The notes beneath the pieces were generated by a model that made no database searches, was not told the origin of the DNA, and saw only the letters and a list, made by a program, of their open reading frames with translations. This document shows positions 39,656-46,211 of a stretch of DNA of 64,000 nucleotides, piece after piece. The position numbers and the translations under genes are program-made. This DNA is from Arthrobacter sp. MYb227 (GTDB lineage Bacteria; Actinomycetota; Actinomycetes; Actinomycetales; Micrococcaceae). The stretch covers positions 124,001 to 188,000 of the forward strand of contig NZ_PCPT01000006.1 in the NCBI RefSeq assembly GCF_002975435.1, in the 5' to 3' direction. Every line of letters begins with the position of its first letter. The stretch's first letter is position 1.

Positions 39656-40414
39656 GTGCAGCGCAAATTGTGGCTTTTAGTGGCCGCTGGACTTGTCGTG
39701 GTGCTGATGGCTGTGGCAGTGATTTTCAATCTTGCCTCGCGGGATCCTGCGTCTCGCTCAAATGCAATTTCTAGCCCGAACGCTGCGTCCAGCCCCAGTG
39801 TTACCCCAACAACTGTGTCTGAAACTCCGAAAAACTCAAACGAAAACTCTCCTGCGCCTTCGGGCTCAGCTGTGGTGTCGGAACCCATAGACCCAACCAC
39901 TGCCACGAAACAAACCGGTACCGAGGCCCCCCAATCCACATCGTCAGCATCGCCCCCTTCTGCCTCAGCCATTGAAAAACCTCGGCTTGAGGTTCCCTCG
40001 ACTCCGCAGCCGAGCGTGACAACGCTGCCGAAATCTGTTGAAAAAGCTCCCGCAATTTCCGGAAAAACGCCTCAAGAAGGAACTGCCTCGGGGAAGCTAA
40101 CGCAGGGATTTCCCGCCGAAGCCCTGCCAGTTCCGGAGGGTGCACATATTGTTGATTCTTCTGTCAGCACGCAGGGAAAAAATATCCAGGTAGCTGTAAA
40201 TTACAGGACGTCGAAGACCCCGGAACAGGTGTTGTCTTTTTATGAGCATGCGGCAACAAAGAAGGGCTGGCTGGCTACCCGAGGAACAGGGGCAGACGGG
40301 GCCAAGAATATTACTCTTGGCTATGGGAAAGATACGACTGTCGCAACGGTAAGAACTGCCGGAACTGGCGCTACGGTTGTCGCCGCCTTTGGTAGTTTTG
40401 TGGCAGGAAAGTAA
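39656..40414 (+). CDS. Exported protein with Ser/Thr/Pro-rich stalk, unknown function
   Basis: A 252-residue protein starting at GTG 39656 after GGGGGA. An N-terminal helix (LWLLVAAGLVVVLMAVAVIF) serves as signal anchor. Residues ~30-150 are a low-complexity Ser/Thr/Pro/Ala stalk. Residues ~155-250 form a small domain (GAHIVDSSVSTQGKNIQVAV, then TPEQVLSFYEHAATKKGW) resembling the fold that pairs a strand with a YxxxxxxxGW helix in many actinobacterial envelope proteins. It lies four bases upstream of the next exported-protein gene, so the two are co-transcribed. No family name assigned. Confidence 0.7.
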   Translation: MQRKLWLLVAAGLVVVLMAVAVIFNLASRDPASRSNAISSPNAASSPSVTPTTVSETPKNSNENSPAPSGSAVVSEPIDPTTATKQTGTEAPQSTSSASPPSASAIEKPRLEVPSTPQPSVTTLPKSVEKAPAISGKTPQEGTASGKLTQGFPAEALPVPEGAHIVDSSVSTQGKNIQVAVNYRTSKTPEQVLSFYEHAATKKGWLATRGTGADGAKNITLGYGKDTTVATVRTAGTGATVVAAFGSFVAGK

Positions 40415-40418
40415 GGCT

Positions 40419-41441
40419 ATGCAGCAGGCAAAACGTAAAACGTGGCCGGTAGCGATGATGGCTTCTATTGCGGTACTCGTTGCTGGCGGAATTGCTGCCG
40501 TGTCAATTACCGGATACATGCAACGTTCCGCCGCGCCAACTTCTACCATCCAGGAGAACCCATCAGGGCTGAAAGAGATTCCACTGTCGAATGCTGTGGT
40601 TTTCCGAGACACCCGCGATTTCCAAGATTATGGGAAAGTCGGTTGGGTGGAGTTGGCAGATCTGCCGGGTACCCGAACTATGACGTCTCTATCGTGTGAC
40701 AGGGTCTACCGCACCGGAGGCATGCTCTCTTGCCTCAGCGTCAACCGTGGCATGAACACCACCTACGATTCGCAGGTCTACAGTGTGGGTGGTCAATTGC
40801 TGGCTACCGGATCGCTACCGGGTGAACCTAGCCGTACCCGCGTCTCACCCACGGGCATGGTGGGGGTAACGTCCTTCATCACCGGTGAGTCTTATGAACA
40901 AGTGGGTTTCTCCACCAAGACAACGATCTCGGCCCCGGGCGGAAAAGACTATGGAAACTTACAGGATTTCACCCTATTGGTTGATGGAAAAACATTGACC
41001 GCTGAAGACCGTAATGTCTGGGGTGTCAGTTTTGCCAAGGACGCCAATACGTTTTATGCCACAGCGGCTTCCGGGAAACAGACCTGGTTGATGCGTGGCT
41101 CACTATCGGACCGAACTTTAACAGCGGTCAGTGAGAATGCGGAGTGTCCCTCCATTTCGCCTAATGGGAAGTTCATTGCGTATAAGAAAAAGCGTGCCGA
41201 TTCGGTACCTGTGCATTGGGATATTGCCGTTCAAGATCTTTCTCAAGGAACCGAGACGCTTTACCCATTGGAGACTAGCTTCGATGACCAACTTGAATGG
41301 CTTGACTCCGAAACCTTGCTCTTTGGACAGGCCCGGGCCGATAGCCCCGGAGATGCAGACATCTTTTCTTTGACACTACAAAATGACAGCAAACCACGGT
41401 TATTCCTTGAACATGCGTTCTCGCCTTCAATTCAGCGCTGA
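40419..41441 (+). CDS. Membrane-anchored TolB-like protein, unknown function
   Basis: A 340-residue protein from ATG 40419, with a basic start and one hydrophobic helix (VAMMASIAVLVAGGIAAVSI). The extracellular part looks like a beta-propeller. It has repeated short strands and a PD40/TolB-type blade, CPSISPNGKFIAYKKKR (~residue 250), followed by WDIAVQDLSQGTETLYPLE and LEWLDSETLLFG. No catalytic motif is seen. AGGAAAG lies before the start. It is coupled to the stalk protein upstream and convergent with the giant secreted protein; a joint envelope role is inferred. Confidence 0.68.
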   Translation: MQQAKRKTWPVAMMASIAVLVAGGIAAVSITGYMQRSAAPTSTIQENPSGLKEIPLSNAVVFRDTRDFQDYGKVGWVELADLPGTRTMTSLSCDRVYRTGGMLSCLSVNRGMNTTYDSQVYSVGGQLLATGSLPGEPSRTRVSPTGMVGVTSFITGESYEQVGFSTKTTISAPGGKDYGNLQDFTLLVDGKTLTAEDRNVWGVSFAKDANTFYATAASGKQTWLMRGSLSDRTLTAVSENAECPSISPNGKFIAYKKKRADSVPVHWDIAVQDLSQGTETLYPLETSFDDQLEWLDSETLLFGQARADSPGDADIFSLTLQNDSKPRLFLEHAFSPSIQR

Positions 41442-41492: not shown

Positions 41493-44400
41493 CTACTTCG
41501 AATAAATGAGGTCGACGAAGTAGTTAGTGTTTCTGCTCGTTGATGTAGGCATCGTCCCGCCACTTCCGTACCGATAACGGCCGTTACTCGTGGAAGCGGT
41601 GATCACTCCGTCTGTAAAGGTCTTGGTGAAGAAGGAAACGGTGGTGGAAACGTGTCCGCGTGGGGCTAGGTAAGAAATCGTATAAGTTCCCGTAGCTAGA
41701 TTTATGGGAGTAGCAAAATTGGCGCTCTGCCATCCTTGAGCAGTCTCTCCGGTGAAAGTGACCTTGCCAAGTGACTGACCACTGGAATTCCAAAGAGTTC
41801 CGGTATGAGCTCCCGTATTGGCCAGAGACTTGTAGAATCTGATTCCCGTCGCCTTGATTTGAGTGTTGGTGCTGAATCTCAGTCCTACCTCGATAGACCG
41901 TGAGCTTGCCGAGTCAAGCAGCGATGGTTGCAGAGTCCCAAACAAGTTGGCAAGGGCTGGCAGAGTTGGAGTTGGAGTTGGCGTTGGTGTCGGTTCGCTA
42001 CTCGGGGACGGGGATTGGGTAGGTGCTGTTGGTTCCGACTGCCCGGTAGTTTCAACTACTTCGCGGTAGAGCAAATCTACGAAGTAGTTGGTCTGCCCCC
42101 AGGTCCCTGTTGGCATGGTGTTTCCGGAACCGTAAACAAATAGTCCGTTATCTCCTTCAGTAGTCAATGCACCTACCGTGACGGGTTGTGCAAAGGCATT
42201 TGCGGTGTAGGAATACCCTCCATTCGGAGCAAAGTAGGAAATGACGAAGACTTGGTTTGCTTGCAGACGGACGGGGGTACTGAGCTGTACAGTTTGCCAG
42301 CCAGAACTCGATTCGCCGGTGAATGTTGCGGTTGCAAGTTTTGTTCCCGATTGATTCCAGAGAGTTCCGGTATGGGTCCCGCTGCTGGTGGTCCCCTTGA
42401 AGAAACGCAGTGCCGTGACATCGATGTCTTTGGAGGTCTTAAGCTTCAAACCTAGTTCGACGGAATCAACGTCGTGTGGGTCTAGCTGGGCAGGTTGGGA
42501 AGATCCTAAGAATGAGGTCGGAGCACCGTTGGGATTAGCTGTATTAAAGTGCCATTCTTGGTCGGGCAATAATGCACCGGTCGCAGACTTTGCACTCTTC
42601 AACTGGATTGTTATCAATGCTCCGGTGTTCAATGATGCGGTGGGCGTGAAAGTAAGTGTCTTTCTATCGGCCGAGTTTGAAACTGTCCCGGCGATGCTCC
42701 CCGTCGAATCATGTGCTGTAAATGTGAAGCCTGGAATAATAGCCTGACTTAGTACCGCGCTGATCGAGCTATTTACCGGTACATCAAGTTCGCCATTAGC
42801 TGGAGTTTGCGAGACGAGCTTGATGGTTTGCGATGCATCGGGAGTGAAAGCAACATCGACGAGATAGTCCGAACTTGTCTGATTATTTGGGAAGCCTCCA
42901 GGATAGACGTACACCCCTGCATTAGCAGGACTCTTAAGCGGACCAAAGACTTTGGCAGCGCCCAAAGCATTAGCCGTGACCGAGTAGGTTCCTTCACTGG
43001 TATAGGCCACCGTGTATTCGGTGTCCGCGGTGATGGCTACGGGGTTTGAGAATTGAGCAGATTGCCAACCGGAGGATCCTTCATTAGAAAAAGCAACACT
43101 GGCTAGCAGAACACCGCTGGATGAAAAGAGTTGTCCGGTGTGTGCACCGGCGTTGCCCGGAGCTTTGTAGTATTTGACTCCGGTAATTTTTCCATCTTCG
43201 GTGGAGCTAAAGCGCATTCCTAGCGTTAGTGGTTCACGATCGTCGATCAGTTCGGTTCCGGGTAGAACTGAATCTTGGTATAGCCCGCAGGGGCAAGCTC
43301 CAGCGATGACATCGGGCTTCACGCTGGTGAAGGACCACTCGGAACCAGTAGTAAGGCTGATTCCTTGGGTATCTTGTGCCGAAATTTTGACTTGGTAGGT
43401 TTCTCCCTTGGCGAGAGTGGCAGCGGGAGTGAATGTTCCACGTCGAGTAGCCGCATCATACGCAGTGGTACCGGGAACTATTGTTCCTGAAGCAGTTTTT
43501 ACCTGAAAATTGACCGATGTAGGTTTCACGGCCCGAGACAGCGTGGCACTGATTGAGGTGCCTAGCGGAACACTCTTTGCGGTGTCCACCGGTGACTGGC
43601 CATAGGCACGCAAGGGTGAGTTGTCTTGTGAATCAAAAATCGCATCAACAAAGTAGTTGCCCTGCTCATAACTACTGGTGGGCATGTTTCCACCGGTGTC
43701 ATAGACGCCTGCCGGATTAGCTCCGAATCCTCCAGCTACCTGAAGGGGATCCGCCACGATTCCTGAATAGGCCCAGGCATAGTTTTCTGCCGAGTAATGA
43801 CCCTTCGACGTTGAATATGAGACCACGTATTCGGTTCCGGCGTGTACCTCTACCGGGGTGTCGAACTTAGCCTCTTGCCAGCCGCTAGCACTTTCACCAC
43901 TAAACGTGAGCGTTGAAAGTTTCTGGCCAGCCATCGACCACAACGTACCGGTGTGAGTTCCTGTATTGGCAGCTGATTTGTAGAACCGTACGCCGGTGAT
44001 GAATCCGTTGCTGGTTGGGGTGAAACGCAGCCCCAATTCAACGGCGGAACTATCTCCAGAGTCGGCGGTCTTTGGCGCTTTCTCGCCAAAGACGCTGTAT
44101 GGTCCGCCAACATTTAGCGGCAGCACCGTTGCCGTACTTGGGTAGTTTCCACTGTCATCGATACCTCGTACCAGCAGTGAAACATTGTCTTTACCAGATT
44201 GGACATAGCTAAAAGTCCAGTTGGAAGTGCCATTTGCTGGACGCCAATGAGCTCCGGCATCGGTTGAATATTCGACACCAGCAACAATTCCACCACCAGA
44301 ATCTAGCGCGGTTCCCGAAACGGTGTAGGTCTTACCGTTTTTAGGCGAGGCCGGGGGAGCCTCGGTGACATTGATGCTTGGAGCCGTGAGATCCGTTGAT

Positions 44401-46058
44401 TTGGTAGCCGGAACAAGTCCGCTCATCAGGGTTGAAGGCTGTGCGCCCATATCGGCAAACAGGTTTACCTGAGCCTGTTGCATGATTGGATCTGCCGCAG
44501 CACCATCGCCATCGTGCTCTTGGTCGAGCCCCCAGGTCCACTGGATGGAGCCGGCCGAGAATACTAGAGCTCCACTTGCTGCTTTGTACAGGCTGAGGTG
44601 ATGAGTCGTATTACCGGCTGCAACATTGTTTCCAAAGTCCTGTAAATACTCGGGTACCGCCCCGGTGGTAGTCGATAAGAAGATCTGCCCAGCCGGTCTG
44701 AACCCATTATCCGGCGATTCATCGGATTCGTAACCAATGGTGTGCGGCGCCAGGGCACGCTTTGTGCCCGTAGCTAGGGAAGCCAAAGAGGTGCCCCGCC
44801 ACAACCTACCTTTTCCTTCCTGAGCACTAACAGTCACCGGTAGATCACCGTTATTAACCATATAGAGGGTGCCGGTCAGCGAATTTTCTGGTGTGGCAGC
44901 GCCCGCGCTCGCCGGTGCATAGCGTGGGTCGCGGAAGGTTCCAGTCCATTCGCTACTGGGGTCAATCTTGGCGTAACTCCACGTTTCCTTGTAAGAAACC
45001 ATGGTCCGATAAGCCGTACCGTCGGTTGCAGAGGCCTCGTACCGAGTGCGCCAGTATGCTTCGTTTCCGGAGAGGAACTGAATATTGACTCCGGCATCAC
45101 GTGCCTTTTCGAAATTCTTCCATTGGTTGCCTGACCAGTACTCATCGTGGCCCACCGAAAGCGCGACCTTGTGGTTGGTCAGAAGATTCCCGCGTCGGTC
45201 GGTGTCGACCCCGCTGAAGTAGCTAACGTCGTAGCCGTTGCGCTCCATGAACCGAACCAATGGGTATTCATTCCCGAAGTAGAAGTCTCGGGCCTCGATT
45301 CCGCCACGGGTATTGAATGGTCGGTTGTAGCTAAGTTTGTAGGCTCGGCCGTTGGCTGCACCTTGGTAGAAATCTGAACCACCGTAGGTGTTATAGGCGT
45401 GCCACGTTGGATCGGAGGTCTGGAACAAGATATCGGAATGGCTTGAGTCATCACGGACTATGAAAGTAATATGGCTTGAGTCATCCTTGTCAGCTCGGTG
45501 TAGTTTTGCCACATAGACGCCGGAGACAGCGTCGGCAGGAACATTCCAGCTTGCCGAAATAGCCCAATTTCCGCAGTCTACTAATTCGGTTGCTACATCA
45601 TTACGACAGGCTGGCTGTATTTGGGGAAGTGTTGCGCTTGGGGATACGGAAGCTACCTTTCGAGCTCCAAGCCCTTGGTACCAGCCTGTGCGGTAGATAT
45701 CGATGGTGTAGGCACTAGCATTGGTATCGACCTTGAAATTGATCTTGGAACCAACGTTCACACTGATATCGGTGGAAAAACCTTGGATACTTGCGTCGCC
45801 GGCTCCTTGGATGTCCCATAGATTGGGATCGGTACCGGGTTTGGAATTCTCACACACGATTTTGTTGGCGCCAGGTGCGCACGGGTCTGCCGCTACGGAA
45901 CTGGGCGCAGTTAGCGTCACTGCAACCATTGCCAGAGAACAGGCCAAGGCCCACCAACTCCGTGATCGTCGGCTCCGCGATGAAGCTTTGTTCCCTCCGG
46001 AAGTTGCGCGCGTTGACGTGCGATGAGTAGAACTTGCCGGATCCGATACACGTTTCAT
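41493..46058 (-). CDS. Giant secreted mosaic protein: DMFase-like domain plus four DUF4082 repeats
   Basis: About 1,521 residues. The long basic leader (RSRRSRSWW) and hydrophobic stretch end near SSVAAD, a signal peptide with Tat-like arginines. Residues ~75-545 match the N,N-dimethylformamidase large-subunit-like domain (WYQGLGARKV, SVGHDEYWSG, SAGSIQWTWGLDQE). An Ig-like segment spans ~565-655. DUF4082-like modules lie at about 657-810, 930-1073, 1187-1332 and 1377-1521, each with TGVRFYK-, HTGTLW- and YFVD-type motifs. Big_5-like Ig modules lie at ~823-915 and ~1090-1180. A Pro/Thr/Ser linker (~1345-1370) precedes the last repeat. ATG 46058 has GGGGA six bases upstream. Likely binds or acts on an extracellular polymer; substrate unknown. 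Confidence 0.85.
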   Translation of the reverse strand: MKRVSDPASSTHRTSTRATSGGNKASSRSRRSRSWWALACSLAMVAVTLTAPSSVAADPCAPGANKIVCENSKPGTDPNLWDIQGAGDASIQGFSTDISVNVGSKINFKVDTNASAYTIDIYRTGWYQGLGARKVASVSPSATLPQIQPACRNDVATELVDCGNWAISASWNVPADAVSGVYVAKLHRADKDDSSHITFIVRDDSSHSDILFQTSDPTWHAYNTYGGSDFYQGAANGRAYKLSYNRPFNTRGGIEARDFYFGNEYPLVRFMERNGYDVSYFSGVDTDRRGNLLTNHKVALSVGHDEYWSGNQWKNFEKARDAGVNIQFLSGNEAYWRTRYEASATDGTAYRTMVSYKETWSYAKIDPSSEWTGTFRDPRYAPASAGAATPENSLTGTLYMVNNGDLPVTVSAQEGKGRLWRGTSLASLATGTKRALAPHTIGYESDESPDNGFRPAGQIFLSTTTGAVPEYLQDFGNNVAAGNTTHHLSLYKAASGALVFSAGSIQWTWGLDQEHDGDGAAADPIMQQAQVNLFADMGAQPSTLMSGLVPATKSTDLTAPSINVTEAPPASPKNGKTYTVSGTALDSGGGIVAGVEYSTDAGAHWRPANGTSNWTFSYVQSGKDNVSLLVRGIDDSGNYPSTATVLPLNVGGPYSVFGEKAPKTADSGDSSAVELGLRFTPTSNGFITGVRFYKSAANTGTHTGTLWSMAGQKLSTLTFSGESASGWQEAKFDTPVEVHAGTEYVVSYSTSKGHYSAENYAWAYSGIVADPLQVAGGFGANPAGVYDTGGNMPTSSYEQGNYFVDAIFDSQDNSPLRAYGQSPVDTAKSVPLGTSISATLSRAVKPTSVNFQVKTASGTIVPGTTAYDAATRRGTFTPAATLAKGETYQVKISAQDTQGISLTTGSEWSFTSVKPDVIAGACPCGLYQDSVLPGTELIDDREPLTLGMRFSSTEDGKITGVKYYKAPGNAGAHTGQLFSSSGVLLASVAFSNEGSSGWQSAQFSNPVAITADTEYTVAYTSEGTYSVTANALGAAKVFGPLKSPANAGVYVYPGGFPNNQTSSDYLVDVAFTPDASQTIKLVSQTPANGELDVPVNSSISAVLSQAIIPGFTFTAHDSTGSIAGTVSNSADRKTLTFTPTASLNTGALITIQLKSAKSATGALLPDQEWHFNTANPNGAPTSFLGSSQPAQLDPHDVDSVELGLKLKTSKDIDVTALRFFKGTTSSGTHTGTLWNQSGTKLATATFTGESSSGWQTVQLSTPVRLQANQVFVISYFAPNGGYSYTANAFAQPVTVGALTTEGDNGLFVYGSGNTMPTGTWGQTNYFVDLLYREVVETTGQSEPTAPTQSPSPSSEPTPTPTPTPTLPALANLFGTLQPSLLDSASSRSIEVGLRFSTNTQIKATGIRFYKSLANTGAHTGTLWNSSGQSLGKVTFTGETAQGWQSANFATPINLATGTYTISYLAPRGHVSTTVSFFTKTFTDGVITASTSNGRYRYGSGGTMPTSTSRNTNYFVDLIYSK

Positions 46059-46211
46059 CTGTTTCCCCAAGAAGATGATGGAGCTCTAGCCCGTTTTGGG
46101 TGCCCCAGCTATACGTAACTGCGTCGAGCATAGGGGGAGTCGGATTAAGCTAACAAGCGTAATTCATACTCGGATTGGAATGCGTGGCTACGGATTTGAG
46201 AGAATATAGCT

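Follow-up and report, generated by a model that had tools for sequence, protein, structure and literature searches.

One of the systems nearest to the protein studied here is N,N-dimethylformamidase (DMFase), whose large subunit is DmfA2 (PDB 6LVB). The relevant report (PMC7686228) gives Y399, Y440 and E521 as the iron ligands, describes H519 as essential, places N547 in the active site and states that the large subunit is inactive by itself. DmfA1-DmfA2 appears in the literature as a cytosolic-type two-subunit enzyme. The closest solved sequence, and the best fold match, is N-acetyl-(R)-beta-phenylalanine acylase (PDB 8HUY, 8I59 and 8I5A), by its PDB title a hydrolase of an N-acetyl amide, which has a small amino-acid substrate and shows neither repeat modules nor an export signal in the alignment. 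Both of these solved relatives, found by sequence and by fold, are amidases and neither acts on sugars. Proteins of the type described below are named in the public record either 'N,N-dimethylformamidase beta subunit family' or 'DUF4082 domain-containing'. Literature searches returned a table entry only for DUF4082, nothing for PF13313 and nothing for dimethylformamidase together with exopolysaccharide. Within the literature covered, outside which subscription papers mostly lie so that this is no proof of absence, no function was found for exported DUF4082 forms, including under PF20254, DMFA2 and dimethylformamidase. An original prediction, made from the DNA letters, had called the activity and target undescribed, and this accords with that literature, in which we found no functional description.

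Here we analyse a gene of Arthrobacter sp. MYb227 that lies within a window of 64,000 nucleotides, the window being the whole stretch of DNA analysed. An uninterrupted open reading frame on the minus strand (41493..46070) encodes 1525 residues when read from a TTG at 46070. The ATG at 46058, which gives 1521 residues, has a GGGGA stretch directly upstream and is the likelier start; residue numbers below are nevertheless counted from the TTG (1525-residue frame). The features of the gene and its neighbours are as follows.

39656..40414, plus strand: membrane-anchored-looking protein rich in Ser and Pro
40419..41441, plus strand: convergent neighbour with a weak PD40 beta-propeller match
41493..46058, minus strand: entire coding region with the ATG at 46058 as start (1521 aa)
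45888..46058, minus strand: basic N-terminus and a segment like a signal peptide, whose end lies near ...APSSVA/ADPC (from sequence)
44514..45707, minus strand: catalytic domain, DMFA2_C (PF20254), at about residues 122-519, or 118-515 when counted from the ATG (Pfam)
45366..45395, minus strand: Tyr226 (45393-45395) and Tyr235 (45366-45368), predicted metal ligands equivalent to DMFase Y399 and Y440
45141..45149, minus strand: His308 and Glu310 (GHDE motif), equivalent to DMFase H519 and E521
45063..45065, minus strand: Asn336, equivalent to DMFase N547
44121..44393, minus strand: Ig domain similar to the one through which sulfite oxidases dimerise, residues 560-650 or so
43635..44105, minus strand: DUF4082 repeat 1 (Pfam)
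43326..43625, minus strand: Big_5 domain 1 (Pfam)
42849..43292, minus strand: DUF4082 repeat 2, with a CPC motif just upstream (residues 926-928) (Pfam)
42531..42848, minus strand: Big_5 domain 2, limits approximate since Pfam coordinates were given for the best stretch only (Pfam)
42066..42518, minus strand: DUF4082 repeat 3, the one that was modelled (Pfam)
41952..42065, minus strand: linker rich in Pro, Thr and Ser (from sequence)
41496..41951, minus strand: DUF4082 repeat 4, the C-terminal end of the protein (Pfam)

The single reading frame and its Pfam matches bear out the expectation of an exported giant protein that joins a DMFase-like domain to four DUF4082 repeats. The DMFA2_C match covers profile positions 1-372 of 374 (E 1.4e-100; 337.8 bits against a cut-off of 27), and DUF4082 (PF13313) is matched by four full-length stretches (E 4e-170; 559 bits against a cut-off of 28.4). 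Two or three Ig modules had also been predicted: Pfam confirms two, as Big_5 stretches (E 7e-22), while the further one comes from profile and fold searches that match the region to the Ig domain of sulfite oxidases, together with a weak Mo-co_dimer match at residues 574-609 (E 0.13). By genome-wide profile search DMFA2_C is single-copy in this 4.3-Mb genome; in the phylum, 52 of 296 genomes sampled contain it. The nearest loci belong to two Paeniglutamicibacter species and Arthrobacter sp. AQ5-05, with 73-74% identity in the best segment. The gene stands alone, flanked on both sides by genes on the opposite strand. Two other gene rows in the window may be recorded: at 30834-34555 genes for a solute-binding protein, a permease and an ABC ATPase (SBP_bac_6, BPD_transp_1, ABC_tran/TOBE_2), which we take to be of the kind seen in iron(III) uptake, and at 56081-61463 genes for a BCCT transporter, an aldehyde dehydrogenase and a GMC oxidoreductase, a row that presumably resembles choline-to-betaine operons.

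The catalytic domain was compared with its relatives in an alignment of 27 sequences, made up of the window protein, 22 of 28 homologous loci and four rows from plasmid records; the other six loci (L003, L004, L015, L019, L027 and L028) are absent from the catalytic-domain alignments A1 and A2. Searched against the PDB, the profile of these 27 sequences found the acylase (8i5a, E 6e-11) and DMFase (6lvb, E 5e-4). The original prediction had named the DMFase metal site as the feature to look for, and the 6lvb alignment places all of its ligands in the window protein: Y399, Y440, H519, E521 and N547 of DMFase correspond to Y226, Y235, H308, E310 and N336. Both proteins share the H-x-E spacing, and in both the Asn follows the Glu by 26 residues. 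By this alignment, the two tyrosines and one glutamate of a DMFase-type metal site are present together with the accompanying His and Asn. None of the five residues varies within the alignment of 27, and 35 of 36 additional reading frames, some of them from genomes of the first set, have the complete set; in the remaining one, L059, two of the positions hold Phe and Ser. The domain is the best conserved part of the protein, with 67-90% identity over it among actinobacterial relatives. The likeness of fold was seen through a model of moderate quality: an AlphaFold model built on a 23-row alignment reached a mean pLDDT of 62, too poor for pocket analysis, and a fold search with it ranked the acylase (E 2e-7) and DMFase (E 3e-5) so that the nine best PDB matches were all structures of these two, at TM scores of only 0.30-0.35. 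Absence of the metal ligands, named in the original prediction as a refutation, does not apply, as they are present by sequence; the likeness of fold is tentative.

Beyond the five shared active-site residues, the window protein resembles DmfA2 in having an Ig-like region ahead of the catalytic domain. It differs in being exported-type and in carrying an additional stretch of about 870 residues of Ig and DUF4082 repeats. The 264-residue pentraxin domain of DMFase cannot be accommodated, because only about 165 residues separate the signal from the first ligand, as against 398 in DMFase; the alignment gap at its place is about 40 residues, compared with about 290 in DMFase, and the first aligned stretch is weak. 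No small-subunit gene adjoins the window gene, both flanking genes lying on the opposite strand, which at this locus confirms what had been predicted and, with the missing room for a pentraxin domain, supports the view that a role in degrading dimethylformamide is unlikely.

We consider it hardly credible that the protein is a dimethylformamidase or a heavy-metal-resistance protein. The DMFase-type ligands would fit the former. As to the latter, copper- and cation-resistance genes (P-type ATPase, CDF, CopC, RND, ArsR/SmtB) surround the gene on four plasmids of Arthrobacter/Paenarthrobacter and Methylobacterium (L030, L031, L033 and L034), and genes for CobW-type (COG0523-like) GTPases lie directly downstream of it in three rhizobial plasmid records (L032:17398-18579; L065:15436-16650; L066:17669-18853). 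However, the DMFase large subunit is inactive alone according to PMC7686228 and no small-subunit gene is adjacent here, the window protein is exported-type, and no metal gene set occurs among the neighbourhood clusters identified at chromosomal actinobacterial loci. In two of the three rhizobial records the GTPase gene alternates with a second copy, and in two, type I secretion genes then follow; that the GTPases supply metal is a guess. On one of the metal-gene plasmids, a shortened copy with one DUF4082 (L034:9914-12487) ends beside an IS6100 transposase gene.

A signal-peptide-like segment is visible in the window protein, ending ...TLTAPSSVA/ADPC. Tat export, raised as a possibility in the original prediction, is not borne out as a conserved feature and we rejected it as such: a motif of the form RR-x-hydrophobic-hydrophobic was not found in the window protein and is absent from 16 of 23 relatives. 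The remaining seven have one, among them the two nearest relatives, L002 and L026, which carry it as SRRFLA and SRRYLA. The window protein is probably exported by Sec. Type I secretion genes adjoin the gene in two rhizobial records. Three cysteines of the domain (73, 155 and 166) are invariant in the 23 actinobacterial rows and would suit extracellular disulfides.

The DUF4082 modules were compared in an alignment (A3) that omits L005, L008, L012 and L013 and the plasmid loci L031-L033. Repeat 3, modelled with 84 other repeats as alignment, gave a beta-sandwich at a pLDDT of 98. Its best structural matches are PHR domains (3gbw, E 1e-4, and 3no8; TM 0.5-0.6), followed by phage capsid and fibre domains, whereas carbohydrate-binding modules of the CBM35/CBM6 type rank lower and match weakly (E 0.003 or worse, TM below 0.45). 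The suggestion that the repeats bind a polymer at the cell surface is consistent with this model, since PHR/CBM-like beta-sandwiches are modules of a kind that could bind, and the most likely role of DUF4082 is to recognise the polymer.

Across 33 loci (L002-L034), the neighbour cluster met most often is an epimerase/dehydratase (18 loci), followed by a DegT aminotransferase (16), a nucleotidyltransferase/hexapeptide group (12), a NeuD-type acetyltransferase, a flippase, a glycosyltransferase and the PD40 protein (11 each) and a Gfo/Idh dehydrogenase (8); clusters were formed at 28% identity, which can lump paralogues, and named by Pfam and NCBIfam. In Microbacteriaceae and in Rhizobium the gene and the sugar module are neighbours. 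Two copies of the gene in Rhizobium phaseoli have this set of sugar genes upstream, and between L009 and L032 identity is 65% for the epimerase, 48% for Gfo/Idh and 45% for the two aminotransferases. Polysaccharide genes are also found near the DUF4082 forms of two other rhizobia, a short form without DUF4082 (R. indicum), a gene on a Gloeothece plasmid and a short form on a Streptomyces plasmid. Homologues of the Ser/Pro-rich protein at 39656..40414, which itself matches no Pfam family above cut-off, lie near the gene in 18 of 54 neighbourhoods examined. With profiles from the first loci, polysaccharide genes were matched at 9 of 16 non-training Micrococcaceae loci (the other seven having no match) and in 2 of 20 stretches drawn from these genomes as controls, after four of the 20 test loci that repeat training loci had been set aside, one of these being without a match. 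The window's own locus has no exopolysaccharide genes nearby. Adjacency alone, at 9 of 16 against 2 of 20 and with none at the window locus, is insufficient as an argument; because the window gene lacks such neighbours, presence and absence were compared across whole genomes.

DMFA2_C is found in 30 of 149 Micrococcaceae genomes and DUF4082 in 27, all of them among the 30. A Gfo/Idh dehydrogenase of the UDP-amino-sugar type (E up to 1e-40) occurs in 31 of the 149, comprising all 27 DUF4082-positive genomes and 4 of the 122 negative ones (Fisher 9e-26), and its partner epimerase (E up to 1e-60) in 26, comprising 24 of 27 positive and 2 of 122 negative genomes (Fisher 3e-22); these p-values, like that for the phylum below, treat genomes as independent, which they are not, phylogeny being uncorrected. 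Three DUF4082-positive genomes have no epimerase. In the four DUF4082-negative genomes with Gfo/Idh (G082, G122, G133 and G148) this dehydrogenase matches at 58-62% identity in all but G122, and the three Micrococcaceae with DMFA2_C but without DUF4082 have neither Gfo/Idh nor epimerase. Homologues of the PD40 neighbour of the window gene occur in 23 of 27 positive and none of the 122 negative genomes, and in G135 the homologue lies far from the enzyme gene. Of eight genomes sampled in the window's genus, five possess all four of the enzyme, Gfo/Idh, the epimerase and the PD40 protein; the other three possess none of them. As a control for specificity, the generic WecG family of glycosyltransferases separates the two groups less well (26 of 27 against 25 of 122); restricted to reading frames of at least 850 aa, a length chosen after seeing the list, it occurs in 25 of 27 against 2 of 122.

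In the sample of 296 genomes from the phylum, Gfo/Idh at 60% identity or more is present in five, all with DUF4082 (p 3e-9, a value that rests on a 60% cut set after seeing the gap between 60% and 46% and that counts only 8 of 11 DUF4082 genomes, those over cut-off). In the other 51 of the 56 genomes that matched Gfo/Idh, identity did not exceed 46% and the matches were left out as different paralogues, and three of the eight genomes with DUF4082 over cut-off lack a close Gfo/Idh. In the window genome the sugar module lies on another contig (G000:C25:70952-73068) within an exopolysaccharide cluster that also encodes a Bac_transf initiating sugar transferase, two aminotransferases, a NeuD-type acetyltransferase, glycosyltransferases, a flippase, a Wzy_C protein and a WecG fusion. 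Just before this cluster lie genes for three consecutive large LuxR-type (GerE) regulators (L110:9091-16738). Against a link between the two, the epimerase is on 36 records of Sinorhizobium plasmids and the catalytic domain on 5, so that the sugar module can exist without the enzyme, at least in Sinorhizobium; likewise against it, plasmid records of Arthrobacter, Paenarthrobacter, Methylobacterium and Streptomyces that include the enzyme lack this epimerase.

The link of the enzyme to the exopolysaccharide system is strong, while the chemistry is something we infer. This tight co-occurrence with an amino-sugar exopolysaccharide module, evidence that lies outside the window, points to a probable substrate. 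It also bears on the idea that the protein is a secreted amidase for foreign or small-molecule amides, or for peptidoglycan, that is merely parked on the capsule. Both characterised relatives use small amides, as such an enzyme would, but the presence of the gene tracks one specific sugar module even when the two are unlinked in the genome, and we regard this idea as very improbable.

A second protein with DUF4082 follows the sugar module. In five DUF4082-positive Micrococcaceae genomes (G015, G096, G113, G128 and G143) and in G372, an exported-looking protein without DMFA2_C is encoded 12-14 kb from Gfo/Idh. Its 618-687 aa comprise a single DUF4082, a Pro/Thr linker and, at the C-terminus, a domain of some 370 residues. 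The six coding regions are these.

L131:17035-19098: second DUF4082 protein
L130:3294-5240: second DUF4082 protein
L132:4536-6506: second DUF4082 protein
L133:4103-5959: second DUF4082 protein
L134:4302-6314: second DUF4082 protein
L135:4770-6800: second DUF4082 protein

The C-terminal domain had no Pfam match in the four of six proteins scanned and no PDB match with a profile of all six; its conserved acidic residues look glycosidase-like. DMFA2_C has no match in G372, and therefore DUF4082 follows the sugar module even without the enzyme of the window. This would suit a matrix-binding or structural surface protein whose DMFase-like domain is no longer catalytic and in which the DUF4082 and Ig repeats, which fill most of the protein's length, do the work. 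We nonetheless hold that reading to be decidedly improbable, given that 27 of 27 and 35 of 36 sequences retain the whole set of five active-site residues and that the catalytic domain, at 67-90% identity among actinobacterial relatives, is the part best conserved.

We propose, giving the proposal an even chance of being correct, that the protein is an extracellular metallo-amidase, of the family that includes DMFase and the N-acyl-beta-phenylalanine acylase, that removes N-acyl groups from the cell's own amino-sugar exopolysaccharide. After export, probably by Sec, the DMFA2_C domain would bind a metal, which in DMFase is iron, by way of Tyr226, Tyr235 and Glu310. Water activated by this metal and His308 would hydrolyse N-acyl amides, acetyl or formyl, on the polymer's amino sugars, and the DUF4082 and Ig repeats would hold the enzyme on that polymer. 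The product would be a partly de-N-acylated polysaccharide, more cationic or otherwise matured. For the repeating unit of the polymer, the expectation is a 2,3- and/or 2,4-diacylamino sugar. The module's enzymes are a 3-dehydrogenase-like Gfo/Idh, DegT aminotransferases and a NeuD-type acetyltransferase, and N-acyl hydrolysis is the most economical reaction because their products would be amino sugars bearing N-acyl groups, and hence the amide bonds that an amidase needs, and because both characterised relatives are amidases. The same co-occurrence applies equally to another reaction in the same exopolysaccharide system, whether depolymerisation, transfer or hydrolysis of a non-sugar amide substituent (an amino-acid or peptide amide), and one of the solved relatives, going by its PDB title, has an N-acyl amino acid as the compound it cleaves. 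Such a reaction is unlikely, though an alternative of some weight: the most specific partner found is an N-acyl amino-sugar module, and nothing points to an amino-acid substituent.

With N-deacylation as the preferred reaction, a broader picture can be sketched, which we offer tentatively and judge rather more apt to be wrong than right. A DMFase fold placed outside the cell would be dedicated to the N-deacylation of a polysaccharide, so that a metallo-amidase scaffold would carry an activity like that of carbohydrate esterases. It would work within a conserved exopolysaccharide system that has DUF4082 as its own binding module and a beta-propeller protein as partner, joined in some genomes by a second DUF4082 enzyme whose further domain is possibly glycosidase-like. 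Root-nodule bacteria would share this system, with type I secretion genes beside the gene and not a Sec-type signal. The family name points to a solvent; the genomes point to an exopolysaccharide. If the proposal is true, it would provide a function for DUF4082 and for a branch of the widespread DMFA2_C family, and would define a new class of enzymes that tailor polysaccharides in bacteria of soil and root nodules.
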